Part shown: positions 2,691 to 46,800 of the stretch, in pieces
Layout: every line of letters starts with the position of its first letter
Numbering within the stretch: position 1 is the stretch's first letter
NCBI GenBank assembly: GCA_021234155.1
Contig: JAJEKV010000008.1
Coordinates: 11,152,740-11,216,739, forward strand
Source: Isoetes taiwanensis
Lineage: Eukaryota > Streptophyta > Lycopodiopsida > Isoetales > Isoetaceae
Direction: 5' to 3'
Length of the DNA: 64,000 nucleotides
The notes under the pieces: model-generated
The model's database searches: none
Told to the model about the DNA's origin: nothing
Seen by the model: only the letters and a program-made list of their open reading frames with translations
Program-made: the position numbers and the translations under genes

Positions 2691-3374
2691 CTGTTACCCG
2701 CATCATCACATTGGGCTAGTATATGTGAATGCGTCTGCAAACTTTCAAGTATGTTTTCATGGATATCATCCTCCAATTCAAACATATTATGTCCTATATC
2801 CTTCATGTCAAAATTGGGGAGACAACTAAGGATCAGTAAACACGCAGGTCGGCTCATATTCAAGTAGTTCATACCCTGCTGTCTCCCACGGTTTATAAAA
2901 CTTTGCTGTGACCACCACTTCCCTCCTCCCAAATTTTTGGCCCCAAGGATCTTTGTATGCTTTCTCTACAACATGCTTAGGTACAGTACATTTTAAGATG
3001 TAGAAATCAACCTTCTCCTTATTACCTGCTGGAGCAACCACTGCAAAGTTCTCTCCTACATCTATAATATCTGATTTCCACTCAGCATCTCCCTCATAGA
3101 CTGGCCCATCAACAAGTGCAGCATCATCCTCAATCCCTGGTCTTAATTCTGAAAACGTCCAGGTACCTATCCTATCTTTGTGTATGCACTTACTGTACTT
3201 ACCCACCCAACAATTATGACAAAAGCATGAGTAATTCATATGTGCAACTTGAGTGGCATCCTTGGAGTTCACTGGCCTGATGCTATGAAATTTACTGGAC
3301 CCTGTTAAAGTAGCACAGTCGAACTGCTCAACCCTGCTTACTTCATCCAGCTTGATCTCCCAAAAATACCTACA

Positions 3375-3510
3375 AACACATAGTAATGAGTAACATTGAG
3401 TAGTGTCTAATAAGTAACATTGATGAGTAACATTGAGTAATGAGTAACATAGTAATGAGTAACATTGAGTAGTGTGTATTAAGTAACATTAATGAGTAAC
3501 ATTGAGCACT
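3375..3510. repeat. Intronic minisatellite, GAGTAACATTGAGTAGTG-like
   Basis: Irregular repeats of GAGTAACATT and TAGTAATGAGTAACATT fill most of the intron between exons 3545-3679 and 2826-3369 of the copy 1 transposase gene. Their intronic location explains why the exons on both sides stay in frame. Confidence 0.75.
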
Positions 3511-5535
3511 GTCACAGCAGTCATGAATCCTATGTAGAATGTACCTATGTTTGTCAGAATCCTTGAAGTGTTCCCTGCAGGAACAACATCATGAGCATCC
3601 CGTAAAGGCTTGGAATTCCTCTTTAACATTTCATGTGTGGGTGCTCTCTTGAGAACGGCCCCTGCCCCATCATGCTCACCTGCCATTCAAACAATTGTGT
3701 CTATTATCTTACAAAATGTAGGCCAATCAAAACTGATCTGAATTTACCTTTTCCATGATATGAAGCAAAGTAGTTCCAGTTTATTGGAATGCCAGAGCTC
3801 TTATAGAATCTCCCAAGAAAGTAGAATGTTCTTGCACCCTTGAACTGGTGTGAGCAGCCATCAGACCACATTACGTGATTGTTGTATCTGACTAACTTGC
3901 TGGCCAAGTAATCAGCATGCTTGTTTAGACAGTGCTGGACGAATAAGGTGTCATGATCTCTATCATCCGAAATGTAAAAATGTGTCTCCTTGATGATATG
4001 CCTGTCACCATTGCTGAAAGAGTTCTCTTCAACCTCTCTTGCTGTTGCATGCCTGTAACTGATGTGCACAAGTATTGTGCACTGATCATTTCTCCAATAC
4101 AAGCTTTGGATTTCCTGCTGTATTTTGAAGGTATAGTTTTCAGCAAAATCTATGACTGATACCACAGTGTTTTCTGGAAAAGTGCCTAGACATTCTCTGA
4201 ATTGCTTCGCTTGCCACCTTGCCTCATAGTTATGGGGAATGAATTCAGTCACAATCTTTTTGGCATAAGACAGCACATCTGCTGTTGAACTGGTCTTGTA
4301 CACAAGCTTCACAATTGGCTTTGGAACCAATTTTGTCCCACCATTGCCATCAACCTCTTTTGCTGATTCAAAAACCTGAAAAGAAGAGAGTACAACCACA
4401 AAATAAATTTAAGACAACCACAAATGAAAAAACTTAATATGCTTCACATACCCTGTCAAAGGTTTTCCATTCTACCAAATGCCCTGAACTCTTGCTCAAT
4501 TCTTTAGGATACATAGGTAACTTAGAAGGGCCCAGGGCTTTGCATTTCAGCAACATGCGTCATGAGCATACCATCGATGCGAACATCCTTAGCACATACA
4601 ATTGACCTCCACAAATCACTTGATGATTTGTAGGTCATTGCATTTGCTTCACATTTTGGTCCAAAGACCACGCATGAGAACAAGTACAACTGCAAGTCGG
4701 CACCATGGATATTTCTATCCAGCCTAATTTTGTTTAGTGCTTGTCCGACATAGTCAAGCCTCATGTGGTACACACAACAGCCAAAGTTTCTCTATCCTTT
4801 ACTTTTCGAAACTAATGGAGGTTTTTAGTGCGGATCTTTGAGAAAGATACTTCAAATTTTGGATATCCTCTTCGAAATCTTGCATAAAAAGTGCACTGCA
4901 TTATAAGCAACAAAAAGGGTTAGCATTGTGAAGAAATGAAATGATAAATTTCAAAAAAAAAAAGTTACCTCAGTTTCCTCCAGAAAATGAAGGGCATGCA
5001 TTATCTTGTTTCCTTTACCAAGCCTAATCTTAATAACATGTTTCTTGCATGGTGAAACTCGTGTCTGAAAAGTCCAAAAGTTAGTTACTAATTTTTTTTG
5101 TTGTTTCTGCGCTTAGTTTATCAGATCTGGTTTTCTTTTTAAACATTGACCACATTGCACTTGGAAGTTCCCAAGCAATTAGTGCCAGGTACAACAGCAT
5201 ATACCATGGCTGAGTTCCTTGCTGTAAGCACATCCGTTGATCTGGCATACTTATGCTTTGCAAGAGAATTCCTCAAGTTGTTGACAATCTTAGTCATTGT
5301 CCCTAATTCTTTCAATTTCAACATTTCAAATTCTCGGCAAAGATCTTAGCGGCACCTTGAAGAACTTCTTTTCCTCTCCTTTTTTGACAGTTTTCGACAT
5401 ACCTTATTAGCATGTTCTACAATCAACTTCGACATTTGTTGTTTTCTTCTCTTGCTCAAAACATCTTCCAGATCTTTGTCATCTTCTAACAATTCAGCCT
5501 CCCTTGTTCTTTTTCTTGCTCTCTGCTGCCTTTTT

Positions 5536-5935
5536 CTTTGTGCATCGATTTTCCTATGACAAATTTTCTTGTGCTTCAGATTCTGCAAATAACAACAGTT
5601 ATGAAAATAAAGCACAGTGCACATAACTTGAGCATCAAAAAGGAAGTCAGTACAGCACCAATAACCTGCTTCAATTTTGTCATACATGTGCTGGTCTTGA
5701 ATGTCCTCTGCATAATCTTGGATGTCTTCATGGACAAAGAAATCCTCTTCTTCCTCTCTTCCAGATTCTGCAATTAATATACTTCTGAAAATTAAGCAAT
5801 AAATTTTATTGCAAATGAATGCAATGACCTGCTTCAACTTGGTCCTCCATGTGCTATTCTTGAATGTCTTCTGCAGATTCAACACCTGTAGCATCATATG
5901 TTGAAAACTGTGTGTCTTTCTCAGCTTCTGCAAAT
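5536..5935 (-). repeat. Duplicated exon-intron module in the copy 1 transposase gene
   Basis: Two or three related modules lie in tandem. Each has an acceptor (TTGCAG or similar), a short acidic exon ending in DIQ-x2-HM-x-D-x-(V/I)EA, a donor GT, and then an AT-rich intron. Exons read EDIQDQHMYDKIEAE and, in the neighbouring module, DIQE..HMEDQVEAE. Intron sequences are also related, so whole exon-intron units were duplicated. One module carries an in-frame stop. Confidence 0.55.
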
Positions 5936-6110
5936 TAAGAACAAATCAATAACAGAACCAAATTCAATGACCCAAGAACTGCTGATTAGTGAACTACTGA
6001 TTACCATGAATGTATTCATAGCCAAAAGATTGTTCTGGAACATCAGGAACATTTGCAAAAGGCTCAAGATAATTATTCCCAAAGAATTTTTGAGGCCAGC
6101 CGACCGCACA

Positions 6111-7143
6111 GCTGCTTAAATTGCTCGGATTGCTCTACAAGATTATGCAAACTGGACAGTAAATTCTTAGGATCAAATCTTGTTCCATTCTTAGAAATGG
6201 CCAAAAGGAATGCGCCTTCCCAATTCGCTTGCATTGGAAAACATCTGCAAAGAAAAGCAGCAGCTGCATTCTGCCAAACAAACGGAGCTTTGGAAAATTT
6301 GCCCGCCAATTGCAAATTCCAAGCACCACCTGAATTGCTACATACCAGGGATCGCTGGCTTGGACAAACAATCGGCCGATCCTCCAAAATTGATCCGAGA
6401 TCAACCATTTCGGAGGTTGGGAAAAAATGGCGGGGGGGGGGACAGTGACGGGTGCCAGGACGTCACGATGAAGGCCCGCCAGCACCCGCTAAGCACTCGA
6501 TGTCCCGGACTGCTTTTTTGTACACCACCAATAAAAAAAGACCCATTAGCGCGTCCCATTTTTTTCTCCACTTCAACCATACCCCGAGATGTTCCATGTA
6601 GGCTGCTGAGGCTTCTATAGTATTCTTCTCCAAAATGTCATGGATGACGGTCAATGAGGTAGAACATTTCTTGCTGATGTTTTGTATTGTACCGGGCCTT
6701 TTTGCATTTGAAAAAGTACGGTATTGTTTGATCTCTTGCACTTGCAAAGTGAGGTCAGTGGCTAGTCGGAGCCAATGCTTAAGTTCCTTATGTCAGCATC
6801 AAACAATCGGTTATGAGGAAAGCTTTTCGCGTGCGAGGGTCTTTGTGGGCGGACCCTCCAAAGCATATCTCAACAACAGTGAGGAATACAGTGCTGGCCA
6901 CTATTGCTGCAATGTGAAAAGCTACAGAATTCACGCTAGCTCATTTGCGAGCATCTCGGCATAGGACTTCGCACAATCGCAATCCAAATGTAGCTGAGGC
7001 ACTCGGGAGTTATTAGGGCACTGGATCTAAATAGGTTGTCTAATTATCTGAAGGAAAATATCGAAGACATTGAAGATGCTTATAAAGCAAGAAAGGAAAA
7101 TACACGCTTTGCTTTTTAGGGTTCGAGCCACAATTGGCATTGA
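6111..7143. other. Between transposon copies 1 and 2; one short unrecognised minus-strand frame
   Basis: No family was recognised. A minus-strand frame at about 6463-6747 (...SLTVIHDILEKNTIEASAAYMEHL...WLKWRKKWD) has protein-like composition and may be a remnant exon, but no splice partners were found. A minus frame at 6073-6408 runs into the first acidic exons of copy 1. The right TIR of copy 1 was searched for here and not found. Confidence 0.3.
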
Positions 7144-7147
7144 TACT

Positions 7148-7170
7148 GGGTAAAAGAAAGCTAGGGTGTC
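7148..7170 (+). repeat. Left TIR of transposon copy 2
   Basis: It begins GGGTAAAAGAAAGCTAGGGT and is an exact inverted match over 23 bp to 18198-18220. TACT precedes it at 7144-7147. Confidence 0.85.
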
Positions 7171-7461
7171 TTACATTTGGCCAAATGTAGAGTAAGAGAT
7201 GTATCACATTTCAAATACATAACCGTTTTTTCAGTATGTACATAATAGCTATATTATGGAATCTTTTTTTTCGGAACTACTTGCCACGTCAATTAAAACG
7301 CAATCATGAAGCAGATTTCAATTCCCGCCGCTGTAACCACTCCAAGAAACGCCTGAACGTTAGGAGAATTTCCCACTTTCTGGCTAAAACTTCGCCCAGC
7401 TCCAGGATTTCCCTCCTTCTTGCCAGAATTCCTCCAGCTAACCCTAAACCACGCAAGAACC

Positions 7462-10400
7462 ATGATGAACAACGAAGGAACAGAAATGGCGCAAGAAGAT
7501 TGCAATATCGGGAATGTGACAAAGAAAATGAAGCGTAAGATTGATGAAATTTGTAAATTTATATATGATCGGGTTCAAGATTTACGCCCGCGTGCAAAGG
7601 AGAGCTTTAGCGTTGAAAACCGTCGGGATGAAAGGCTCGCACTTTTTTGAACCCGCCATTGGAAATCGGCGCAAGCAATTCTCGAAGGATACTATGCTAA
7701 AAAAATATCCGTGAAGGTGCAAGCAGAAGTGAAAAGAGCAAATAGCAATGATAAATTAGCAGCTAAGCATTCCCTGTTATCAATGATTGTTGGTGAGAAT
7801 GGAAAACTCAGGCAAAAAGGAGTAGCCTCCAGAATTCTTCAAGTGCAAGCAAGAAACCTCACAAAAGCTGCAATTAGAAGAAAGCGGATGTCATTATCAG
7901 GTGCTAATATGTGGGCACCGGCGCGGAAGGCAACCCGTAGGCGGACATGCTTAGGAATCAACCAAACGGTTGGTAAATGAGTTTTGGTTAACCCCACAAA
8001 AACTTCTCCAAAGTACGGGGATGTCGGGAAGAAAAAGGACACTTCCAATCCAGTTTTGGACATGCCCCGTGTCAGTTTTAAGTCTTTTTAATCCTCTTTC
8101 TTGCAAGCTTGATAGAAGCTAGCTTATGTGCATCCCTGGATAAGTTTAGTAATCCTATTTGCATTCCATGTAAGGGATGTATCTGATATACATTGTAGTA
8201 CATCCAACTACAATAATTATATTTTTACACTTGGAGGTACTGAATGGGCTATGTTTAACAGGAAAAGTACTTGGATGTACTTCCAGTTACATCCAATGTG
8301 GCATAAGGCAGAAAATGTGTTGAAAGTCAGGCTGTGTTATTATAGTCTTGCTTTTTGTAGTTCCCAAGTACATTATAGTACATTTTAAGCCTTTTCGATC
8401 TCGGGGATAGTCTTTAAAGATAGGGTGATACATAAAAGTATTTAAATGTACTTCCTTCCATAAGAAAAGTATGAAATACATACATCTGTAATACAGTGAT
8501 ACTGTCTGTGACCTGGTTACATATTGAGTTTTTTTATGTACATCTGGAACTCTTTGGAGTACATTATTTATACATTTGTACATATCATGTGCTGTGGTAT
8601 GTATGATGGTGTGGTATAGTAGTTGAATGTATATCAAATCATGATCTGAGTGCCATAGAACTAATGCAATGTCTGCAACATCTTTGAATTCGTAAGTAGT
8701 TCTAATTTATATCTTACTTATACATGCCATTTTTTTTTCCTTGCAGAGTGAATTGTATGAGATGTTCAAAGATGAACATCCCGAAGTGAAGATTAGCATC
8801 GAGAAAGTTCGAAATGCTTAAGCCTAACGCGGTGTGAGAAGGTTGAAAGAGAGGAACACATCCGCCGCTGCGTGAAGCATGAACAAGCTGATCTATCTGG
8901 GGAAAGCTTTTAGCGCCCCGAGGAGCAAATTTCATGCCAACCGTACATGTTCTTGTGGTGTTTGTGCAGCAGATGAGAACAATGGCGCCTCGCCAAGCTC
9001 CTTCTAAAACATTTCAAAATGTTGGTGCTATGTGGAGAGCTACTGATGGCCCGTGATAAGGAAGGCGAAGAGTGGCATAGTTTGACTGCGGTGAAGGGAG
9101 AGTGCCGTAACTGTGGTAATCGAAAATATTCAAATCTGTCCCTAAGGAGAAAGAGTCGAAGAATGAGAACATTGAATGGCAAGTTTACAAGCACGCGGAA
9201 CGAACCTTCCAAAGCTGGCACTTCAAGGAGGTTGAAGCTTGTTACCGAAAAGCGGGACTCGGTGTACATTGCTTGACAAGATGTTTCAAAGACCTTACAA
9301 AGTTCACTATTCACAACTTTTCAGCAAGTTGGCGAGCAAACAATTCGTGAAATCGATTTAAAAATTTGAGGGATGATTCGTTTTGTCAAGAATGGACTTT
9401 GCAAGAGAACTACACTTTGACCATTCAGGGGAAGTTCAGTCCGAAAGCATTGGAACAATGACCGATAACTATTCCGTGCATATAACCATGATGAAAGTCA
9501 ATGGCGAGCTGAAAAAACTGTTCATTTGTATGTTTTCGATGTTATGAAGCATGATGCTTTCTTTGTTCATTTTGCACTCAAGAAGCACCATATTTGGATG
9601 ATGCAAAAGGTTTTAGCCACATCAAATACCATGTCATGTGGTCCGATGGGTGTCTGCTTTCGGTTTAAGTGTTCTCGAGCCTTTTATTTGAATGTGGCCC
9701 AATATTATAACAGGTATAAAATTAGGATGCAGTGGAATTATTTTGGCTCAGGCCATGGAAAAGGAGAACATGATGGGCATGCTGCTTTGGAGAAAAGGTT
9801 CCTAGCAGACGAGCAAAGGAAAGAGAATGGTATTCGATTTTGGGTGTTAACTCGCTTGCACTTTGCTGAGACAAAAGAAGTGCAAAATGGACAGAGTCAT
9901 ATGGGAGGTGATGGCAGAAGACATTAACAGGGACCCTCGTTCAGATTGTGAGACATTGCCTGGTACTCTAGCTATACATTGTGTGTCTGCTATTAATCCA
10001 GCTGACCCAACACTTGTCATGTATAGATCCCTGTCATGTTTTTGCAATGGTTGCTTGAATTTCAGATGGGGAGAATGTGAGAATCTCGAGCATTGTGGTG
10101 CATGGAAGCTGCACAAACTGGAGCCTAGTTCGGCCCAGGTCGACGAACAAGAAGAGCTAGTTGGTTTTTATGCAGCTGATGAGCAAGAACTATCCGATGT
10201 ACTCCAAATTGGAGACATATTTGCATCTTTTGCTGCCCCAGGGAATCATGAAAATGTTCCATACTTCGTCCTCCTATGCGTGAAGGAGATGCATATTCTT
10301 CAGGAAGATGTGATTGACGACTATGGAAATAGAATCGGGCCTGGTGAGGGGTTATAGCTGGTCATTACTATCAAGCGCTACAAGGCACAAAGCACAAGTA

Positions 10401-10575
10401 CAAGTTGCTGGATGACAAAATAGTATTGGTACCAGCTGAATCTGTAATTGGAGCAAAGTTCACGATGCAGCAGGTCAAGCATAAGTTGAAGGGGGCACGT
10501 ACAACATATATGATCACACGAGAGGTGCATGACATGCTTATATCAAGCCTACCTGAGATTGTTGAGTGCACATGA
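7462..10575 (+). pseudogene. DDE-transposase-like gene, transposon copy 2 (frameshifted)
   Basis: The likely start is ATG 7462 (MMNNEGTEMAQ...), 314 bp from the TIR. In order, the readable blocks are NSNDKLAAKHSLLSMIVGEN (7740), TSPKYGDVGKKK (8010, shared with copies 1 and 3), SELYEMFKDEHPEVKIS (8746), a Cys-rich GECRNCGNRK (9100), MDFARELHFDHSGEVQS (9393, equivalent to DFAENY of copy 1), a degraded DG block near 9650, MQWNYFGSGHGKGEHDGHA (9728) and the C-terminal CFCNGC...C...GDIFASFAAPGNHENV module (10030-10270). The stop at 10573-10575 follows EIVECT. Several single-base frame changes (for example near 7650, 8820, 9250-9500 and 10355) and internal stops show decay. The gene converges on the minus-strand partner gene. 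Confidence 0.65.
8075..8745. other. Large intron or insertion within the copy 2 transposase gene
   Basis: An AT-rich stretch with many ACATCC / GTACTT / GTACAT motifs separates the VSPKY-like block from SELYEMF. It ends in a good acceptor (TTTCCTTGCAG, to 8746). In copy 3 the two blocks are almost contiguous, so this is an intron absent from copy 3 or a later insertion. No coding signal was seen. Confidence 0.45.
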
Positions 10576-10619
10576 CTAAGTTCTGTACAAAGGAACTTTC
10601 ATATTTGCCATCATCTTCT

Positions 10620-11171
10620 GTTATGTTGAGAAAACTAGTCGATTGCTGTAAGTTTTTTTGTTATTTACTTATTTTTTAATCTGAAGTGCATTTTGATACT
10701 TCAATTTCAGTATCACAGAATATCTTCTGTGACCAAGCAAAATGTATATCAGAAAGTACAAAATGTTTATCAATTGTTGCATGAAGAAGTTAAACTAGTC
10801 TGTGTTATGTTGAGAAAACTAGTCGATTGCTGTAAGTTTTTTTGTTATTTACTTATTTTTTAATCTGAAGTGCATTTTGATACTTAAATTTCAGTATCAC
10901 AGAATATCTTCTGTGACCAAGCAAAATGTATATCAGAAAGTACAAAATGTTTATCAATTGTTGCATGAAGAAGTTAAACTAGTCTGTGTTATGTTGAGAA
11001 AACTAGTCGATTGCTGCAAGTTTTTTCTTATTTACTTATTTTTTAATCTGAAGTGCATTTTGATACTTAAATTTCAAAGTATCACACAATATCTTCGCTT
11101 CCAAGCACAATGTATATCAGAAAGTACAAAATGTTCATCAATTGTTGCATGAAGAAGTTAAACTAGTCTGT
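10620..11171 (+). repeat. 184-bp tandem repeat, three copies, each containing an intron-like segment
   Basis: The unit starts GTTATGTTGAGAAAACTAGT at 10620, 10804 and 10988, a period of exactly 184 bp. Each unit contains a donor-like GTAAGTTTTTT and an acceptor-like TTTCAG about 80 bp later. The first two units are nearly identical and the third is more diverged. The array follows directly on the stop of the copy 2 transposase gene. Confidence 0.9.
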
Positions 11172-12279
11172 GAACTTGTTCTGTTAGAATGGATATCAAT
11201 AGCTTTTCTTTTGATTCATGAAACAAAGAAGAAAGTGGAACATGTATGGAGACAAAAACTCTTGTATTACATATCACAAGATATACAACCTGGTCATATC
11301 AGATATGATGCCAATATATACAAGTCTGTTGTTCATGTTTTATATTAACATTAATTTACATTCAAAAATCTGGTCACAACCATGTGAAGCCAATTACATA
11401 CTATTCTCGGGCTGTTTCAATATGTTACTTTCTTGCGGCTTTGTCCATAGCCTGGACATGCCATCTGTATCCTTGTAGCCCTCTGAAAGCATTTGCCTCC
11501 AAACAGCTGTTGTTAGTACATCGGATGGATTGCGTAAAGGATTCTCGCTTCACATCTTGTTGTGTGTCTCGGTGCTATCAACAAACCCTCTAGCCATGGT
11601 TTGAAGTGTCAAGAGACCCGTGTCTTCAACATCACTTTCCCGCCATGAAGGTGGGCATATGCAATTTTCGTTGGGATTGAAGAGCATCTTGTACTTTGAG
11701 TCGTCTACTATTAGTGTGTTCTTTGTTATTCCTGCCCGGATACTTCTCGTGATATAAACTCAATTGGCTTCGGATACAAAGGTTTATCTTCACTTGCTGC
11801 AATCAGGAAAAGGCTGACTCCAAACACGATGGCTTCCATCAAAGGTGAACCTTAAGTCCCTTATCTGCGTCATTGTCAAGATTTTATCCACTACTCTTGA
11901 TAGGTTCCATGGAGCTATTGATGACCATATTCCTACTTCAAAGTGTTCAAATACAAATTCCGTGAATTCGCCTAGGTGGGGCCTTTAAAACAACACTTTC
12001 TTGCCTATTATGTCATAATTTCCAACTAGTGATCATCCGATACCAAAGTCCTATGTATTTGTTTTGCCAAAACATTATTGATATCAAACACTATCAACCT
12101 TTTTCAGACGTACACTGATATGAAAGAACATGCAATTTATCAATAAAGTATGGTGGAGTTGAATAAAAGAGATTGTATTCAAATTCAATGAAAAAATGTG
12201 TATTTTATAATCAAATAGTGTTTAGCATTGACAATAGGGAGAGGCTGTTTCTTAGCAACATTTATTAGTACCAGGTGGT
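11172..12279 (-). other. Coding-like minus-strand remnant downstream of the protease gene
   Basis: Minus-strand segments read FTFDGSHRVWSQPFPDC (about 11850), ITKNTLIVDDSKYKMLFNP (about 11720) and CICPPSWRESDVEDTGLL (about 11640), separated by frame changes. Composition looks like protein-coding sequence, but no family was recognised. It follows the stop of the partner gene at 12280 and may be a third element gene or an alternative 3' end. From 11172 to 11400 nothing was recognised. Confidence 0.3.
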
Positions 12280-15200
12280 CTAATAGGTTCTAAAAGCGAT
12301 TTGAATGTGGTCTAACTCCTGAAGTAGTGCTCGGGTGAGAACATCACGACGATCAGATGCATACTTTGTCAAGAACCAGTTTCGGTAATCTGCAAATGTG
12401 ACAACAATACTTACATAATAAGTATTAAAACCATTTGTTTGCAAGACAAAAGAAGTGAGACACTCACATTGGTAGTTTTACCACACATTTGTGTCTACAA
12501 ACTTCGCATATAAAGCCGCAACATAGAGGCCACATGAATCCCCATCTTTCTGCTGTGGACACTTATGAATCTTCACAACTGGTGAAGGATTTTGTCCATG
12601 CTTCAAAAAAGTGGGACACTCGACACAACCGCGTGCCATAGTGAGGATATGGAGCCTGCAAAAGACCAGATCTATTTTGTAGCAAATGAATGAAAAGAAG
12701 TCGCTAACATGGTATCCAATCTACTCAATATTAATAAAAGGAGATGTGAAATACAAAATACCTCTTAAGTGCAAGCATGTCAACGTCAATGTCCTCGTGG
12801 TAATTGAAGATCCGAATGTTGATGGTGTTCTTACTCTTAGTAAGTGCCATGTTGAAGATGGCCAAAGTGTGATGTTCAAGAACTCTACATAGCATTGGAA
12901 TCATGATCCATCGCACTTCAGCCAATTTATCCCCTGAAGAGCTACCTTTACAATATCTCTTCCACCTTTGAGGTGCCATAGATTTATCTTTTTCGCTTGC
13001 CTTGGCCCATGCCGCAAATTCCATGAAGTCCGATTGGGAAGAACCGGACGTCGGCCTTCTTATCATCTGGAACACAGAGCTGCAGGTACCTATAACAAGT
13101 TGAAAAGGATACAATTACTAACTTGACTTACACATACAAATGAACAAGTTCAAAGTCCAGTACCTGGCATACATATCCACATGCCGGTTGGAAAATTTCC
13201 CACATCCATGTCCAAAGACATCTTGTTCAAATAAATAACACTCCATTTCGTGCAAAGATCCCGGGAAAATCCTTGCCTTCTTGAGCTTCATCATTCGGTT
13301 CAAGAAGGCATCAGATGGCTTTGTATTGAGAATCGCAGCCGGGTTCAATGACCAGTACATTTACACAAATCATCTACATTCGTCTACTACTATCCATATT
13401 ATTTTAAAGTTTTTAACTTGGATACTAGATGTAGAAAAAAAATGTAAGAAATGTAGATCAAGTTACTCAGAGATCATTCTTCCGCTTTCCGCCGATACTT
13501 GTTTCTGAGTCAAGATCCATTTCCTTCCCTACTTTTTTGGTTTCCTCACTCAGATTCTTATTAGGTCCGTAATCCTCGTCGCGAACCTCTTCCTCGATTT
13601 CTCATTGTCGAATTTGGCGTCCTTTGCTATGTCGAAGCAAGTTTTGACACAAACTTAAAAGTATAGGGCTCTACATCTTGATGCTCGGAATATTCCTCTT
13701 CATTAGGACACGTAAAACATAGGATGTCATGGATTTCTCACCGGCTGTACACTAAAATAAAATGCTTTCTTACATTTTCTCTTTGCTTCAATTATCTTCT
13801 TCCGTGGCTTTTTAGGCGTGGAGTTCTTCTTTGGAGTCACATCTTCTGCCACGCCTTTACTTTTGAAGATGTGGCCTTAGCCTGCTCCCTCAATCTCTCG
13901 AAGTTCCCGCTCATAATGTGGAATGTCACCATGCACTGGTGCCGACCTCCTCAACCTTTGTATCACCAGCAGAATAGTGATTTTGCTTTTTCCTTCAATC
14001 ACTGCTTTCTTTCCCTCGGCTACATCTTGCACCTCAATTTTCTTTGGAACCTCCAAAACTGTGAAAACCGAACCAAGAATAAGAAATTGCTTCCTCTGAC
14101 ACAATGCAAATCGAATTTGAAAACAAGCGACCTCGATCCGTGGTGTAATTTCGCCAAGAGTAGTTTTTGGCACTTTGAAGCTCGAAAATAAATCACATAA
14201 CAAATCGGATATCGGCCTCAAACTAATCGGTCTCTAACCGTTTCATACATATCAATAGTCAGACATATTACTAGAACTGATCTACATTGAAGTACTTTGA
14301 GTACATACATATGTAAACAGCTATTTATCCAGATGGAATGTACATGTAATGTACATGAATGTGCTCCAATGTATGCACATGTACACATCACACAGTACAT
14401 AAAATACCTCTAAATGTTCTGCCACAAAACTCAGTACACAACTCCTAATTTTATGTATTTAAGTTCTACATTTAGGACCCTACACTGTGAATGTACAACA
14501 TGTATGTAAGAAACACATATATGTATGACATGCAAGCCAAGGAACTATAAGTATAAAATAACCAGTACACTCCTACATGTCAGAGCAAAACCTTAAGTGC
14601 AAAGAATCTACATGTAAATGGATTCTACATGTAAATGGATTCTACATTGCAAGTAATCCCGGGTGCAACAAATTGAACATAAATCATGAAATATCGCTTA
14701 CCTCCGGTGTATACACACCCAAGGTCTTTGAAATGTTATCGCCCCATTTGCATGCTCTTGGGCGGGATAGTCCAAAGCAGAAATAGAATATGAGAAACGA
14801 AGATATGAAATGAATGCTCGCGATGGAGCAACTAGGATAGGTTCATTATTAGCAAAGCCATTACTGCAAAACACACATCCATGCACAGATATGAATTTTT
14901 CTTCAGCTGGAGAGATCACTAAGCTTGTTTTGGGCTGAAGGAGAATCGCTGCAGAATGCATCATGTACTTATGCATATCATCAAGCCGTCATAAAGACTC
15001 AAACCTGAACTTTGTGGGCCTCCTCAAGTTCCGCAATCCTCTTTTCACATAACTCCTTCTCCGAATGGCTTTCTCCAATGGCTCCTCGAATTCTCTTCAA
15101 AGATTTCTTCCTTCCTGTTTCTATCTCTCATCAAAAGGTCTACCTCCTGCTGCACAGTCTTGATGTCTCTCTTATTCTGCTTAGCGTCGTCGAGAACACT

Positions 15201-15980
15201 ATTGATGTCTTCTTGTATCTGTGCTAGGTCCTCTTCATGTGCATCCTTTCTTCCTGAAATCTTATTTATATTGTCACGTAATTAAATGCTGCTGGATTTT
15301 CAGTTCTTCAACCTTGGATGTCTTTGCTAATTAACTCTCCATGACAACGCCGCAATGTGAGTTTCGCAAATTCAAGCTCTTCCTTAGGGTAAAATCCTTG
15401 CTGAAATTTAGGAACCTTGGATGTGGATTTAGAGGTCGCAATTTCTTCTGTAATAGCAGATTCTTTTGCTCCTCCCTTTGCCAAATCTTTGGCCAAAACT
15501 TTAAAAGTATCCCAATCTACTTTTTTACCTGTCAATTGAAGGGCAAATGCACGAGCAAAGTACTCAGGTACATGGCGATTTGTGACCTCCCGCTTACCAA
15601 AAACAATTTCATAATGTTTGTAGAAGTTCTCGCCCACTCGGCTTCACGCTTAGATTCTTTGAACCCCCGTGATGTCTTTGGGCCCCACCGCTTTCGTCCA
15701 TTATCATTTGTAAATCTGGAAAAATTTCATCCGCATTTACACATCTTACATGCTTTGCTTCCCAACAAATGGTTCTTCACAAATAAGTCTTCTTTTTGGC
15801 CCGGGTTCCTCGAAGTTTGAACCTTCCTCTTGTTTTTTCGGCTTTCTTGCTAGAATCGGCTATTTTCAAATTTTTGTTTAAACTGGTGACTTAGGGAGGC
15901 AAAGGCGCCCATTGCTTGGATTTTGGCAAGGATTTCGAGGAAGAAGAATAGTTCTGATCCGAATTACCGTTGATCACTTT
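12280..15980 (-). pseudogene. Partner gene with coiled coil, RING-like cluster and Ulp1/C48-type protease
   Basis: On the minus strand, from N- to C-terminus: a conserved block FYKHYEIVFGKREV (15.6 kb); a coiled-coil segment QIQEDINSVLDDAKQNKRDI (15.2 kb); a cluster GCVFCSNGFANNEPILVAP then EHSFHIF in the next frame (14.85 kb), matching the RING-like exon of copy 1; and a C48-like domain with ECYLFEQDVFGHGCGKF (13.22 kb), HHTLAIFNMAL (12.85 kb) and CPQQKDGDSCGLYVAAL (12.50-12.56 kb). The final exon ends LLQELDHIQIAFRTY with the stop at 12280-12282. QxxxxxSCG is the oxyanion-Gln/nucleophile-Cys signature of SUMO/Ulp1 proteases. The His is seen (HHT in place of the usual HWT). The Asp position reads IRIFNYHED, perhaps Asp to Asn. 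A TAA at 12478-12480, just after TNVW, and several frame shifts indicate decay. The predicted activity is removal of SUMO or ubiquitin-like tags; the target is unknown. Confidence 0.6.
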
Positions 15981-16103
15981 CGAAACACGTAAAATTGAAC
16001 GGCGGCAAATTTTTTTCCTAAACAGGAAACACTTCGCAATCTCCTGCCCTTGGTATGCAATACAGGAAATTGAGATAACATTATGCTCCCACCTTAGCGC
16101 CCG

Positions 16104-16275
16104 CCGCCTTCTTCACCGCCTTAGCGCCCACCGCCTGAGCGCCCAGGCCCGATCAAGCTCATGTGAGGCTGCAGGGGGATGTTCTCTATCAGCCCGCTCA
16201 CCGCCTTCTTCACCGCCTTAGCGCCCACCGCCTGAGCGCCCAGGCCCGATCAAGCTCATGTGAGGCTGCAGGGGC
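16104..16275. repeat. 97-bp tandem duplication, GC-rich
   Basis: The segment starting CCGCCTTCTTCACCGCCTTA at 16104 recurs at 16201 almost unchanged through GAGGCTGCAGGGG. Flanking sequence between about 15980 and 16100 shows nothing else recognisable. Confidence 0.85.
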
Positions 16276-16795
16276 AATCATCAGCGGAAAACATGGTTAT
16301 GGCATAGTCTGGCATCACCAGCATCAACAGCATCAACAGCCGGGTCTGTTCATGTGAGTCGGCTAGCTTCCAGACAAATCCAGCTTCGGCCACATCAGGG
16401 CTCTAGAGGCCGAGGGTTTTTGGCCCAGTGCAGCAAAATTAGGCGGCCCTTTTGGCTTTGCAATTGACAGCAGCAGCGGAATCCGGCCTCGGCTTCAGGG
16501 AATCACGGCACAGCTCCGACAGATCACGATAGTTCGGCAGAGTCCCTTACTTTGCTTCTGCTTTTGATGCCTACGTTGCCTTGGTGTCTAGTATCTTACC
16601 GTTTTGAACTCTTGATCATCTCTGGCCCCCTTTGTCACTCACACCAGGTTTGGGATTGCCTCTGCTTTCTTTGTCTTTGCCCTTGGAGATACTTCTGTTT
16701 TGTGGCCCATATCCTACAGTTTCGATTCCTTGAAGCTTGGAGCTCCTTTCTTTTCTTATAAGCAGTTCTGCTGGCCCATCCTCTTGTTGCTCTGA

Positions 16796-17752
16796 ATGGC
16801 TCGTCAGATCAAACGCATGGCCAGGGAGACCCGTAAAGAAAAGAACCTCGTTAGGCTGCCGGAGCCAGTCTTAAATAGGCCCTATGACCCGAATTGCGCC
16901 ATATCTCCGTGCAGCCCCATCATTTGGGCCTCGGGCCCTATTTTGGCGAGACCCGGACACACCCCCAGACACGCGAACCCGCTCCGGATGCATCTTTGGT
17001 CGCGGCCTTGACCAGATTAATGCTCTCGATCCATTGTTTGCCTCCGATTTTTGCTGGTCGAGATCCGCGACGATCCAATCGACAAGTCCACACTCCACAG
17101 CACATCGGCTCCATTGCCCTTGGGAAGCCGGGTCCGGCTTCTAGAGATGCCGCGCATGCCGGGCGGGAGCTGATTCGGTAAAGACGGTAGTGCTACACTG
17201 CAGCCTCCCCTGGGGTTAGCGCCCGAGCATGTGGATGCTACGCCCCGTGCCGATGATACCACGCCTGTGCCCACACGGCCGTCATCCGAGGGTTGTTTGC
17301 CCACTGCACAGGTCCCGCTTTCGAAGCCTGACCAGGCCACAGTGCACCCGTTAGCCTTGAACCTACGCATTGTGGGTTTGGAGGAAGCAAGCGACACTCC
17401 TGGGGCAGTTGAGGTGACCCGTTTCTTTGCAGAGGTGATGCACGTACAGGCAGATGGCATTCTCTCGGCTCGTCGAGTTGGAGCAAAAAGACGGCCGACC
17501 GGGCCCCCGCCATTTGCTAGTCGGGCCGGGGATGCTTTATCCAAGCTGCACATCCTCCGCCATGGCAATCACTTGCAAGGGACCTCCTTCTCAGTCCAGG
17601 AAGACCTTACCCCAGCACAGCTCTGCCGACGGAAGGAGGAATTATGTCGAGTCCGCGAGGCTCGTCTGCACCGGAAGTGGGCTGTGTATAGAGGCGGCCA
17701 GGCTGTCATTCGGGATCACTGGCCACTTGATCCATGGGCAATGTCTGTGTAG
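16796..17752 (+). pseudogene. LINE ORF1-like nucleic-acid-binding protein, frameshifted
   Basis: ATG 16796 opens MARQIKRMARETRKEK; after a frame change the second half (17231-17752) runs uninterrupted. This half contains NLRIVGLEEASDTPGAVEV, FFAEVMHVQADGILSARRVG and a C-terminal block FSVQEDLTPAQLCRRKEEL...REARLHRKWAVYRGGQAVI. That arrangement (RRM-like fold followed by a basic C-terminal domain with LR..N..G..F...DLT) is characteristic of L1-type ORF1 proteins, which coat LINE RNA. The stop is TAG at 17750-17752. No ORF2 follows. Confidence 0.6.
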
Positions 17753-17956
17753 CTGATTTGACTCCGAGATCTGCTTGGGCTTATGCCCTTTTGTTTTGTT
17801 TTATTCTAGTATTGTGATTTGCTACGGGGCATAGTCCCCCGAGTTCTCTGTACTGGGGCTAGTCCCCACGTTTGATTTTGGCTTCGGCCTTTTTGGTTTG
17901 GTCACGGGGCTTGGTCCCCGAGTTTCAGTCTGGGCTTCTGCCCTCTCTTTTGTATT

Positions 17957-18025
17957 GGGTCCCATAACCCGATTGGGTTCCGCGGACGTTAAAAATTTCT
18001 TCCTTCCTTCCTTCCTTCCTTCCTC
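17957..18025 (+). repeat. LINE 3' end with (TTCC)n tail
   Basis: GGGTCCCATAACCCGATTGG, then CCGCGGACGTTAAAAATT, is followed by seven TTCC units. The same 3' end is found at 24420-24476 (plus), 28196-28252 (minus) and 33171-33238 (minus) with different microsatellite tails. Confidence 0.8.
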
Positions 18026-18197
18026 CGAAAAATTGCAATGAAGGTCCGTTCTGGTTGCCACTGCCACTCATAATTTTGAATTGCTGACGTGGCTACTCCT
18101 AATCATTACATATCCCAACTAACTAAAATTCAAAAAAATAACAAAAACGGGTGCCTACATGCCCTACATTATACATAATGTAAGGGCATTTTTTTTA

Positions 18198-18220
18198 GAC
18201 ACCCTAGCTTTCTTTTACCC
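18198..18220 (-). repeat. Right TIR of transposon copy 2
   Basis: The 23 bp end in AGCTTTCTTTTACCC and are an exact inverted match to 7148-7170. TACT follows at 18221-18224. The 170 bp between the LINE tail and this TIR show no gene. Confidence 0.85.
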
Positions 18221-18306
18221 TACTATCAGTTTGACTCAATGGCCAGAGTGATCTGATAACCTAAGAAGTAACCATATGCGTTGTATTATTTTGTATAGGA
18301 GTTCAA

Positions 18307-21060
18307 TATAGAATAGAATAGAATAGAATGGAATAGAATATACATTATTGTTCCTTGTGCCCTGAGGCCTCTGGACTTATGTAGCATGGGCGAGCTCCCT
18401 AATGGGTGCTACTAGCACATCACGCTGGTTTATTGTAGCCTTTTCTGAAGGCTTCCTTATTTCTATTAATACCGGCATCCCGCTTTGAATCGGCATCATG
18501 GCTGTGCAGAGATGCGTCGTTATCAATCAGCTTTAAGTTGAGCGTTTCTTGGGCAACTATGACTCGCCTCTCGGGCGGCTCATAACACAAGCCCTTTTTC
18601 TTTATGTACTTCCCGGTGTCTGGTCTTCATTTCCCGTATTGCGTCTGCCAAATCTCTCATTGTTTCTGTCCTTACCATCATGGCGTGTACGGGCTGCCCC
18701 CATCTTATGTTTCTGTATTTGTTTCTAATGTCTCCATATATTGGGCACTCATTGAGCATGTGATTCTCGTCCTCCACTTCCCCACTGTCACAAATTCTGT
18801 ATATCCAGTCGTCTTTCTCTACTCTCCTCCATCTGTCCTTTTCAATTCTTAGATCATGGCTCCCCATCCTAAATCTCGCTAGGGTATCTTTCCTTGTTTT
18901 CCCTAGTAGATTATCTCGGTACATCTGCTGTCCTATCTGTTGTTCTGGATTGAAGACTGTCATAGGCCAAAGTGTCTTGGGTGCTGTGTGTCTTTGCAGC
19001 CATGCTCGCGTAGCCCTGTCTGTCCAGTCCTCATTCTATTTACCTACGTCCACCAGGTCGCTCAGATTCATCCCCATTTCTCTGGTCCACACTGCCACAT
19101 CCTTAAACCATCTGCTGCTCGCGATGATGTGTGATTTTGCTGACTCGCTGATCACGATACTCGATAGTTTATTTGGTTTCCCGCCTGCATTATCTCTTAT
19201 GAGATATCTTATAGTCTTCTACCATGCCCTCACCTCCATTGGTTTCTGCCCTCTCTCGTATACTATGGCTGTTAGTGGTGTATTTGTTCTCATCTTAAAT
19301 TCCTGTTTATGCCACTGTCTAAGGATCCCTTCCTATTTTTCCCATTTCTTGTCTGTTAATCCCGGTCCCCAAGCTTCAGCCCCATATAGCTGCGTCGTCA
19401 CGGCCACTGCACTGAACAGGTAGCATTTTATCTCCCAGTCTATTATTCTATTTTTGTTACAGAAATTTTTCATATTAAAGTAACTCCCAATGGCTGATTG
19501 GAATCTCGTATCTGCCCCTTTAGCCCATTTCCTGTTACTTGATACAATTCCTTGTTTATGGGAAGCTAAACTACTGAACAACTGCATCTTATTTGAATAT
19601 CAAGAACCAAGTACAATATATGTATCAAACTGATTGTTTACACGGTTAACCACCCAACCGGATCCACAGGGTTTTCTTGGCAAATTGGCAATCATAAACA
19701 ATCATGGCAAAGTATATCTCTGACTCTGGCTCACCAGCCGTCCGTAACAACTCTACATAGCCACGGCTTTAACTCAATCTCAGCTCAGGGCTTTATAAGT
19801 TAAGCCTTCAAGGAATTTGCACAGCAGAATCGAATAGTCTCCCTATAAACATTTCGGAACTCCACTTGGGCCTTTCATTACAGAGGAGCAGGTATCAGCG
19901 TCGATTGATTCATATCTTCTTCCTTGGTTACAGCTTGGCGGCCGGCCTTTCTAACTCATACGAGCCAAAACTGCAGAGCTCTTCTGCCCACTGCAGATCA
20001 AGAATAGATGATCTCCCTCTCTACTGCGGCCACAGGGGTATTTTCTGCTCCAGCTACCCTTGCCGGGTTAAACAGCTACAGAGGTGATCAGTCCGGATTT
20101 CCAGGCATTTTTGGCCGATGCCGCTCACCCATTAGTCGCCCCTACTCTCCTGCTATCAGATCGATGCCTCCTATATAGCTGGATTCGGCCTTTTTTATCA
20201 GGAAAAGGTATTGACAAATATACCTCGATCCAATCTTCCTTTTTGAGTTGCGCTGGCCCTCTTCTATTAGCTAGAAAGCTTCTGTTACAGTCTCGACCCC
20301 CTTAATTAGATAACCCTTTTTCTCCATGACCACGACCCATCTTTGGGTCGCATCCTTAACCCCAATAAAAGTCAATGCTCCTTTGTTGTTCAATAGTTCA
20401 CAACTATGTCCATGTCTCTTAATAATATTCCTTGCCCACTAGGCAACAACTAGAGATATTTAACTTTGCCATATTTTTGCCATGCCCCCATAACCCTGGC
20501 GCCGTGGACCACTCCCCCGTGCTTGACCCTGTATCAGTTACCGAAGATGACTATTTTGGTCTTTGCAAGGTTTACTGTTAACCCTATCTTTTCGCAGAAG
20601 ATCTCTGGTAGTTTCAGTAATCTATGCATTCCCTTGTTTTTTGTAGCCATCATGCTCAGGTCATCAGCATATAACATGATGGGTACCTTGGTTTCCCCTA
20701 GTGTAGGAGCATCCATGTCCCCTTGTTGTTCTACTATGAAGTCTTGTAATGCATCTATGTATATTCCGAACAATGTGGGGATAACGGGCATCCCTACTTT
20801 ACTCCCGTGTCGCGATTTATTGCCTTTCCCTCCTCTTCCATTTTTGCATATACATTGTGATACAATCTTGCAATTGCTCCTACCATATCTCTTGGTGCGT
20901 GCATATCTATGAGTCTCTCCATGAGCTTCATCCTCGGTACTGTGTCAAAAGCCTTTCTAAAGTCCACAAAGCAACATATTACTTTCTTCCCCTGGATTCT
21001 ATTCTGCTCTATTAATATCCGGAGGGTTGTGATATCTGAATAAGGGTCTTTGTAAAAGAG
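18307..21060 (-). pseudogene. LINE ORF2 fragment (reverse transcriptase to C-terminal zinc region), interrupted
   Basis: On the minus strand the RT reads CCFVDFRKAFDTVPR (20.95 kb), then PTLFGIYIDALQDF, MLYADDLSMMA (catalytic YADD, 20.67 kb) and GLTVNLAKTKIVIFGN; the ORF2 C-terminal part follows at 19.33-19.59 kb (LYGAEAWGPGLTD) and 18.58-18.96 kb (ARFRMGSHDLRIEKDRW, then CDSGEVEDENHMLNECP, a zinc-type C-x-C/H pattern). The 3' end at 18307-18340 is (GAATA)n, i.e. (TATTC)n on the element strand. The endonuclease is missing (5'-truncated), and a foreign segment splits the frame at about 19600-20525. Confidence 0.75.
19600..20525. mobile_element. Insertion splitting the LINE; probable solo LTR or other repeat
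   Basis: RT-derived frames stop at about 19590 and resume at about 20534, so this roughly 0.93-kb segment was inserted later. It carries a TATA-like stretch (CAGCTATATAGGAGGC, minus) and the string GGTTAACCACCCAACCGG (about 19640), which recurs in reverse orientation near 55810 with flanking similarity. That suggests a dispersed LTR. Ends and target duplication were not resolved. Short open frames here are not convincing. Confidence 0.35.
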
Positions 21061-28195: not shown

Positions 28196-31100
28196 TAATA
28201 GAATAGAATTGTTTTTATCGTCCACGGAGACCAATCGGCCTATGGGACCCAATACAAAAAGCGCAGCAGTCACATTACTGCCCGGATTAAAAAACCCCCG
28301 CCCCGAAGGGTTTTCGAGGGAAAAACCGTGGCAGCAATAAGACTGCTGACAACGATTAAATGGTTGACTGGGGGCATATCTGAGCCCTCAAGACCAGAAT
28401 GTATGATCCGAGTGAGCGCACCGAAGTGGTGCCCAGTATTATGTGTAGCGGCTCATCAGGTCTAATCAATTGAGCATAGCGTGTCCGAATCTGATCATAT
28501 GCCGGGCAGCTCTGGAAAGTGTGACACTCATCCTCAACAGCTCCCGTCTGGTAGCACTGACAAATCCTATCCTGACGTGGCTCCCCAATCCATCGACCTG
28601 TCTCAATCCGAAGATGGTGGGCACCTGTGCGAATGGAGACGATATGCCTGCGCTTTTTCATGGGCAGATGTGAATGTAGGTAGCGCTGTGGGCCTCGTTC
28701 TAATGTGGGATTTATATGCTGCTTGTAATGTGCTGTTTTGACTTGCTCCAGGATCCTGGAATCCCAAAGCTTGCTGGAGAAACAAACATCAAGGTAACAT
28801 CTCAGGCTGTCGCGACCTGCCTCTGTTTCTACCTGGATGCACATGTGCTCCTGGACATTCCATCTAGTTAGCCACTGCACTCTTTTATCCTTCCAACAAT
28901 TCTTGAGTCGTTGTGGTCAAGTGCGGTAGACGATCATCATCCATCTTTACCACCTTCTTGATGTGTCTATCAAGGGCCGCTCGCTGAAGTGGCAGGAAAC
29001 CTGTCTCCTGCAACAAAATTTGATATGGGACCGTGGATTTCACTCCGAGTGCCCGTGCTAAGAAGGCCTTCTGCACCTGTTCTAAGTCGCTCCAAGTAGC
29101 AAGGGACACCACTGGGCCCCAGACTTCAACCCCGTACAAAAGAACGGGCTCTACCAATACCCTGAACAGATGTGCCTGATGTCCCCAATCATACAATTCT
29201 GCTCTGTGGTTATTGTTCTGCATTGCATAAAGTGCTTTCCAGCCTGCTGCTACACACAATCTTATGGAAGTGTTCCAGCATAGTGTAGAAGGAAACTCCA
29301 CTCCCAGATACTTGTAGGTGGGTGTCACCTCCACTTGTTGCCCTCGATAAGTGAATGAAGGGGGCCTTGGATGGCGCGAGGATGAGATTAGGACCACCTT
29401 AGTCTTGGCCAGATTGACGTTCATGTCTGTGGCCTGGCAGAATGTATCCAGAGCATCTAGGTGAGACTGCATATCCTCTGGAGTGTGAGCTAAGAGGTCA
29501 ACATCATCTGCATAGATGAGTTGCCTGATGACCTGATGCAAAAGTTGGGTCCCGCCACCCCCGTTGTCCATGAGCCAGTGTTCCAACTGGTCAATGTAGA
29601 CCAAACAATGTTGGGAAAAGAGGACATCCCCGGCGGACCCCAATACTGCTAGTGAATAGTTGTCCCGTCATCCGCGAGATTCGACTGAACAACTCTCGCA
29701 CAACCCAGATAATCGCATTTTGCATATCCACAGGAACCTCCAGTTGCCGCAATCTTTCCCATAACTTTTCCCGAGGCATAGTGTCAAAAGCCTTCACAAA
29801 GTCAACAAAGCAACAATACAAATCCCGCCGACGGTTTCTGCTATCCTCAACCAAAGTCCTCAATGTGAAGATATGATCAATGGTTGAATGCCGGGGTCTG
29901 AACCCTGCTTGCGTGAGAGCTTGCACACCTGTTGCTTCTGCCCACCTGGTCAACTGTTGCTCAATAATGCCAGCTAGCAGTTTGGCAAACACCAACCCGA
30001 CCATGATTGTTCGTAATTGGTTGGACTATGTGGATCTCCCCGCCTTGTAAATGGGGACAACTCGCTTGTGGTCCATGGCTGGGGAATCCTTCATGTAGTG
30101 CTCGTTGAACATAGTGGTTAGGACCGGTACCATAGGCTCCCCCGCCCACTTGAGCAACTCGCCCGCATACCATCCAGTGCATTTGCTTTCCCATTGGCCA
30201 AATGCCGCGGACCACGGGTAACATCATCCTCGCGGATTTCTAATGTCGGACCATTCGTGGGGGTATGAGTGCTCGTGTCCCTTGAGGATCATAGAGTTGC
30301 TGCAAGTATTGTTCCCACTGCTCATTAGTGATGTTCCCCGTAGGCTGGGCTGGCTTTTGAAGAACCTTGCGCCAAAAGGTTCTAGGATGGCTTTCCAACA
30401 TGTAAAACATTTCCCTTTGATGACGTGCAATGTACTGAGATTTTTTTGCCTTCAAGAAAGCACGATCATCGCGGTGGTGGCATGTGGGCGCATTGCGGGA
30501 TCTCGTGGATCCGGGCGGAGCCGGCATTTGTATTCCTTACACTCAGCATCAAACCACTGATTACGCGGGAATGTTGCAGTCCCTGTGATACTTCTCGGGC
30601 ATGCTATCCCAAAACATCTCTCTGTGATAGTACCAAGTAGCTCAATCAGCTGACATGTTTGCTGCTCTAGCGTGGGGGCCTGCAAAATTCCTGAAAGGTC
30701 ATCTATGAGCATATCAGTATAATCCTTTGCCTGCTCATAATCCAATCACAAGTGAGGTATACGAGGAGCTGCCGTAGAAGGGGTTCTAGCAGCTTGCCAA
30801 GCCAACTGCAGGTAGAGTGGAAGGTGATCTGAGTCAGTCTCCTCATATCTATTGTCTGTGCCTACCCGAAAGTGGTTGATCAAATGTATATCCTGCTCAG
30901 CGACTAATAGATAGTCCACCACACTAGATCCTCCACCCTGATTCTCTTGTCTGCAGGTGCACTTACTGGAGAAAGGCCACTGTGCCAGGCCATTACAAAT
31001 TCAAGTCAAAGACATCACATAGTAGAAGCAATCGCCGCCAAAGCGCTGGACGACTATCATCGATGTTCAGGGCCAACGCCTCCGGGCGTGGGCGCAAGGT

Positions 31101-46228: not shown

Positions 46229-46800
46229 CCTAGCTGCTTAATAAAGCATGTATTGTTAGTTATGAAATGGGTTAATGTTGAACTGAGTTGCAGCTGAAAA
46301 GAGGGGCACCTGGACTGATTTCTGATTTGTATGGCACAAATCGGATCCTTCCATTCCCGAGCTCCACATGTGGGGCTTGGCTCCACATACTCGGGCAAAT
46401 TATGTGAGGTTGAAGTACATGGTGCGTGCGCAGAAGATGTGCTCCAAAGTGACAATTAGCCCAGTCGGCAATCCGTCGGCAATCCGACGCCCGAAGGAAT
46501 TGTAGGAAAAATCGAAAGACAACTAAGATAATCGTTGATATACGCAGATTATAAAATCCAACCTCGGTGGGTCAGTCCCATAGTTTGATTGGTATAGTGT
46601 ATTGATTGGTATAGTGAATATACATTTGCCCAATTCGTTTGGTATTATGTTATTTTGCTACGTGGACTATCACAGTCGTCGGATCTGTCAATCCTACAGT
46701 CCAAACTATATGTTGGAGCCTCTGAGCACCTCTCGTTTCGCTTATGCTCATTTATGATTGGGGGCGCTTATGATTTTGAGATGTCAAATACGAGTTTGCC
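46229..46800. other. Upstream region of the PPR gene
   Basis: About 570 bp without coding signal. The first 230 bp upstream of the ATG probably hold the promoter and 5' UTR, but no clear TATA box was picked out. Confidence 0.4.

Follow-up and report, generated by a model that had tools for sequence, protein, structure and literature searches.

Element A, a DNA transposon at positions 7148-18220 of a stretch of the Isoetes taiwanensis genome, is probably the representative of a cut-and-paste family with two convergent loci, one for a transposase and one for a partner that would support expression and transposition by modifying host proteins. The stretch (contig JAJEKV010000008.1 of assembly GCA_021234155.1, positions 11,152,740 to 11,216,739, forward strand) is 64,000 nucleotides long and is called the window below. 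The probability of this reading can be put at about 0.7. The transposase belongs to a widespread family with a catalytic triad of three aspartates (DDD), and the partner locus combines RING-like, Ulp1-like and NIF phosphatase-like domains. In three further elements of the same genome (the neighbouring element B and the elements at two other loci, L053 and L055), the same transposase family is again convergent with a RING-like or a RING-like plus NIF locus.

Element A had been noticed from its letters alone as an 11-kb transposon with perfect 23-bp terminal inverted repeats (TIRs) and the 4-bp target duplication TACT. The duplication stands exactly as described, and the repeats are indeed perfect, although they measure 24 bp. 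The ends of the element and its non-coding parts are as follows.

7144-7147: left target site duplication (TSD) TACT, identical to the 4 bp at the right end
7148-7171, plus strand: left 24-bp TIR, GGGTAAAAGAAAGCTAGGGTGTCT, with a GGGT start and 552 matches genome-wide
7172-7189: subterminal 18-bp perfect palindrome, TACATTTGG/CCAAATGTA
10619-11172: tandem array of three 184-bp repeats, separating the convergent genes at their 3' ends
16044-18018: nested 2-kb insert resembling a long interspersed nuclear element (LINE), with a CTTC-repeat end, absent from other copies and not part of the element
18162-18185: subterminal near-perfect palindrome near the right end
18197-18220, minus strand: right 24-bp TIR, the exact complement of the left one
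18221-18224: right TSD, TACT

With up to 3 mismatches allowed, the TIR is matched twice in the window and at most 0 times in any of 100 shuffles. Across the assembly (1,658,258,908 bases in 1110 contigs), the genome-wide search that the sequence-only reading had proposed gave 292 forward and 260 reverse matches, against 1 forward and 0 reverse for the reversed-pattern control. Among the first 100 matches listed, 17 TIR pairs without a mismatch stand 5.4-10.0 kb apart, and these were examined as copies; 10 apparent pairs at distances of 11-33 kb were left aside, as were the ends that had no near partner. A perfect 4-bp duplication flanks 14 of the 17, with target words that vary from copy to copy; it is imperfect in L033 (gcaa/ttaa), L037 (gaaa/gaag) and L047 (aggg/gggg). 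Every gene segment is retained at least in part by 16 of the 17 copies, the exception being L046, which has an internal deletion. Copies joining the genes to matching duplications had been expected of a real element, and they were found.

Could the window copy nevertheless be a composite of unrelated insertions that merely resembles one element? Its 2-kb nested insert would fit such an origin, but the structure shared by the 17 copies elsewhere, most of them with perfect duplications of their own, nearly all with at least part of each gene segment, and aligned along the element length at ~92% mean pairwise identity, already contradicts it, and this explanation can be given practically no weight. 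Because 16044-18018 is absent from all 17 other copies, A proper is ~9.1 kb long, so that the DNA transposon first described stands and its size of 11 kb does not. The reading frames of the insert are LINE-like as judged by eye, and a six-frame Pfam search of it gave nothing above cut-off. It also contains a duplicated 80-bp GC-rich segment, and part of it (17948-17995) matches window 28212-28259 in inverted orientation. One related empty site was found, the joined flanks of L034 matching L019 at 73% identity without a gap at the junction. For L045, the joined flanks found nothing but tandem repeats of that same locus, some of these matches being gapped at the junction and some not, and the empty site of the window copy has 0 matches in the assembly at up to 3 mismatches. 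Both subterminal palindromes have TACATT...AATGTA cores and are possible candidates for transposase binding sites, while the 184-bp tandem repeats are matched as repeats in other copies of A too.

The plus-strand gene, first read as DDE-like, is a DDD transposase with a predicted RNase H fold, which agrees with that early reading. Its parts are:

7462-8077, plus strand: exon 1 (MMNNEG...), end approximate, with a splice site that was chosen by eye from the majority reading of the copies
8747-10575, plus strand: exon 2 with the DDD catalytic domain, frameshifted in the window copy
9639-9650, plus strand: WSDG motif of exon 2
within 9745-9777, plus strand: GHGKGEHDG motif of exon 2
10034-10054, plus strand: C-terminal CFC-x2-C of the transposase

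A protein search with the catalytic region gave 46 hits among 2,100 candidates, while one with the whole model found 0 among 3,712. The homologues P0001-P0042 are unnamed animal and metagenome proteins, 25-42% identical to the transposase of A and known here as single predicted proteins only, with neither TIRs nor partner genes seen. D/D/D, HGK and CxC are common to all 19 aligned homologues, and the three aspartates are invariant across the 20 aligned transposase rows. In the structural model of P0001 they lie in a strand (201-213), at the end of a strand (286-292) and in a helix (362-379), and a fold search returned the RNase H fold, with retroviral integrases ranked at the top as RNase H relatives. 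Searches of Pfam and of Protein Data Bank sequences with the A transposase model gave nothing useful, Pfam gave nothing above cut-off for 10 of the homologues, and a motif pattern had 0 matches in viral contigs. Its sole match in prokaryote genomes (L048) lies antisense to a motA-like frame and was rejected as coincidental. One homologue, P0012, has a weak C-terminal match to an OTU protease (E 0.007, below cut-off), a hint that further ubiquitin-pathway parts may be attached to transposases of this family.

The minus strand had been credited with a Ulp1-type protease and a RING-like cluster. A Ulp1-like domain and a RING-like cluster are present, but the list was incomplete, having missed a NIF phosphatase domain. 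From the right end of A inward, the locus encodes an N-terminal domain, a coiled coil with the RING-like cluster, a charged linker, the Ulp1-like domain and the NIF domain:

14698-15880, minus strand: N-terminal domain, coiled coil and RING-like cluster, limits approximate
15533-15556, minus strand: ARAFALQL of the N-terminal domain, a domain related to one in element B
14866-14880, minus strand: GCVFC of the RING-like cluster
13483-14060, minus strand: charged basic/acidic linker in two open stretches, limits approximate
12403-13356, minus strand: Ulp1/Peptidase_C48-like domain in several exons, limits approximate
12848-12874, minus strand: HHTLAIFNM of the Ulp1-like domain
12529-12555, minus strand: QQKDGDSCG of the Ulp1-like domain
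11420-12134, minus strand: NIF (FCP1/SCP-like) phosphatase domain, limits approximate
12065-12088, minus strand: FDINNVLA of the NIF domain

The NIF domain gives a Pfam match of 2.1e-8 (34.5 bits, above the curated cut-off of 21.8), and among solved structures it matches CTDSPL (2hhl, E 2.3e-5) and UBLCP1 (3shq, E 2.8e-5). In the window copy, where stops and frameshifts interrupt the genes, the transposase included, the NIF match (11436-12032) contains 3 TGA and 2 TAA codons. Elsewhere in the genome, a model of the A-type NIF gave 155 matches from the best 150 of 5,101 candidates, the best one with 99% identity over the full length, and among the matches listed at least 14 are full length (start at 3 or less, end at 227) and free of stops. 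A protein search with the domain gave 0 among 353 candidates, and Rfam at gathering scores found nothing in the window. In the majority reading a stop lies between the Ulp1-like and NIF domains, and an intron across it may join them; the locus could therefore encode one protein or two.

The association extends to element B, 7,779 bp long, which lies ~600 bp to the left of A and extends past the left edge of the window into L049 (3766-5000).

-1234, in L049: start of the left TIR of B
2826-5945, minus strand: transposase of B, of the same DDD family as that of A, limits approximate
3645-3680, minus strand: GEHDGAGAVLKR of the B transposase
within 3854-3877, minus strand: WSDGC of the B transposase
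within 4133-4165, minus strand: IDFAENY of the B transposase
6512-6544, minus strand: right 33-bp TIR of B, with 3 mismatches to the left one
6545-6548: target duplication ATTA, the same on the left side

Its TIR pattern has 305 matches genome-wide against 0 for the control. Three further copies have the duplications CATA, AGTA and TATA, which makes a 4-bp TSD in 4 of 4 copies of B, and lengths range from 7.7 to 7.9 kb. The gene convergent with the transposase encodes a coiled coil and a weakly recognisable RING-like cluster. When the RING segment of A was compared by blastp with two joined frames of B, it scored 36.6 bits, against 28.1 or less in 200 shuffles (in this one comparison, 8e-4 after correction for composition). 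Neither Ulp1 nor NIF was detected in B.

NIF loci beside a transposase are also found further away. The family model PF03031 gave 151 matches in the genome from the best 150 of 3,261 candidates, many of them open over 250-435 aa; the top matches are partly clustered and look like host genes. Three dispersed loci of 70-74 bits (L053, L054 and L055) were examined, and at two of them, L053 and L055, RING-like and NIF frames are convergent with a transposase of the same family. At L053 a RING-like frame is followed by NIF (4.3e-20, 72.4 bits), with the transposase on the opposite strand; the RING-like frame has a complete C-x2-C...C-x-H-x2-H-x2-C...C-x2-C set and matches zf-RING_2 at 2.6e-4, below cut-off. 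L055 has NIF, the convergent transposase and a short match to the RING of L053 (30 residues, 4e-4). The usual motif I of NIF/FCP1-SCP phosphatases is D-x-D-x-T/V, and in HAD phosphatases the second aspartate is the usual acid/base. Here, motif I is D-x-N in all four aligned NIF sequences, none of which has the catalytic D-x-D-x-T/V. This and the position beside a transposase in A, L053 and L055 set these domains apart from SCP1/CTDSPL and UBLCP1, with which they share the NIF domain. With D-x-N in place of D-x-D, phosphatase activity may be low, or binding may have taken its place.

Selection on the genes of A was assessed by comparing variants private to a single copy, mostly post-insertion, with shared variants, mostly pre-insertion. 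Nonsynonymous to synonymous counts over all segments are 199:117 for private and 89:82 for shared variants (odds ratio 1.57, one-sided p 0.0125), with uncorrected per-segment p values of 0.022 for NIF and 0.039 for the RING segment; the filter applied to codons, which required a local identity of at least 8 of 13, biases both classes. Constraint on the NIF and RING segments is thus modestly supported, and none is seen for Ulp1.

These results bear directly on an alternative, namely that A is an ordinary Sola-type element whose RING, Ulp1 and NIF parts are captured host fragments without function. In the part of the description available, Sola elements have a DDD triad, a 4-bp TSD, TIRs of 11-1124 bp and mostly 2-9 kb of length, and occur in Physcomitrella (PMC10741241); SOLA is noted in Azolla as well (PMC6786969, in part). 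The 4-bp TSDs seen here (14 of 17 pairs plus the window copy for A, 4 of 4 copies for B), the triad, the TIRs and sizes (24 bp and ~9.1 kb for A, 33 bp and 7.7-7.9 kb for B) and the seed-free plant host all agree with these accounts. Capture of unrelated genes is on record for Sola2 (PMC3627910, in the portion at hand), and no constraint was detected on Ulp1 or the linker. Against capture, RING-like frames are seen in all four elements (A, B, L053 and L055) and NIF in all but B. The NIF domains of L053 and L055 are ~30-33% identical to that of A, which suggests an old association. The constraint on NIF and the RING segment and the 14 full-length A-type NIF matches without stops also speak against capture, which is held to be unlikely. 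A RING/Ulp1/NIF partner is not mentioned in the available portions of the three Sola sources (PMC10741241, PMC6786969, PMC3627910). Element A, which the sequence-only reading could match to no named plant superfamily, fits Sola in TSD, TIR, size and triad; it was compared by description only and is not filed there, although it behaves like a Sola element.

Other named superfamilies fit less well. The target of piggyBac and Kolobok is TTAA, and both were rejected on the variable 4-bp target words of A. KDZ/Zisupton elements make an 8-bp TSD and were set aside on TSD length alone. CACTA elements have CACTA/CACTG ends and a 3-bp TSD in the excerpt available (PMC10741241), and were rejected on the GGGT ends and 4-bp TSD of A. 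The accessible part of another source describes Ginger1, with a 4-bp TSD as in A, a TGTNR start, TIRs of ~40-270 bp and, in some members, Ulp1 (PMC2836005). There, however, the transposase is a Gypsy-type integrase and Ulp1 lies inside it, whereas in A it is on the opposite strand; with GGGT ends, TIRs of 24 and 33 bp in A and B and no integrase Pfam match, Ginger was also rejected. Mutator elements that carry Ulp1, and in this resemble A, exist according to the same excerpt (PMC2836005), but Mutator TSDs are given as 7-12 bp in the text at hand (PMC10741241), and the transposase of A has no Mutator Pfam match. It could then be asked whether A and B stand outside Sola, in a superfamily of their own whose transposition machinery cannot do without a second, RING-based protein. 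Their TIRs differ, yet in both the ends are GGGT, the TSD is 4 bp long and a RING-like gene converges on a transposase of the same family. On the other side, the argument is drawn from sequence, the homologues are known as single proteins without context, and Sola was compared by description only; this proposal, too, seems improbable.

In the preferred reading, a cut-and-paste family with a host-modifying partner, the transposase would bind the GGGT TIRs and cut both ends, after which the element would insert with a 4-bp stagger. The partner would act in trans on host ubiquitin/SUMO and also on phosphorylated proteins, the tail of RNA polymerase II for instance; the D-x-N version of NIF may bind such targets rather than hydrolyse them well. 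As a result the element would be expressed, and the transposase or a repair step tolerated. An involvement of the ubiquitin pathway in transposition has already been proposed (PMC2836005, as far as the excerpt goes), and no link between a NIF/CTD (C-terminal domain) phosphatase and a DNA transposon was found in the titles and abstract beginnings listed from the open-licence literature. One paper there, on plant promoters and electromagnetic fields according to its title, contains the terms NLI interacting factor, transposase and transposon (PMC5339303).

Several results weigh against this reading. The zf-RING_11 (1.4e-5) and Peptidase_C48 (5e-4) matches of A are both slightly under their curated cut-offs, Pfam recognises the RING of B weakly, at 0.023 in the best case, and tblastn with the RING segment of A found nothing in B, L053 or L055. 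An uninterrupted transposase was seen in none of the A copies read. At L054 NIF is present and no transposase was found within 5 kb, and TIRs were sought around L053 and L055 and not found. Constraint is not significant for the transposase (p 0.11), Ulp1 (p 0.53) or the linker (p 0.83), and when C>T/G>A changes are left out the p values rise to 0.036 overall, 0.050 for NIF and 0.074 for the RING segment.

The window also holds, on the minus strand and judged by eye, a long open frame for a PPR protein of the DYW type (43781-46237), Copia-like RNase H and integrase pieces (50481-53009), and LINE reverse-transcriptase pieces (28885-29667 and 18580-19035).

Accessory proteases such as Ulp1 and OTU are a standing puzzle in DNA transposons, and the repeated pairing of one transposase lineage with a RING-like gene, and often with a CTD-phosphatase-like domain, allows the part played by accessory proteins that modify the host to be put to the test. 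Element A adds a plant to a transposase family that was otherwise met as unnamed proteins without a Pfam entry. It is a tentative idea, with somewhat less than an even chance of being right, that a lycophyte DDD lineage uses a dedicated second gene of RING-type and phosphatase-like character (in family A also SUMO-protease-like) for its transposition, and that much of the plant's large NIF set is transposon-borne. Lycophyte PF03031 gene counts may be inflated by transposons.

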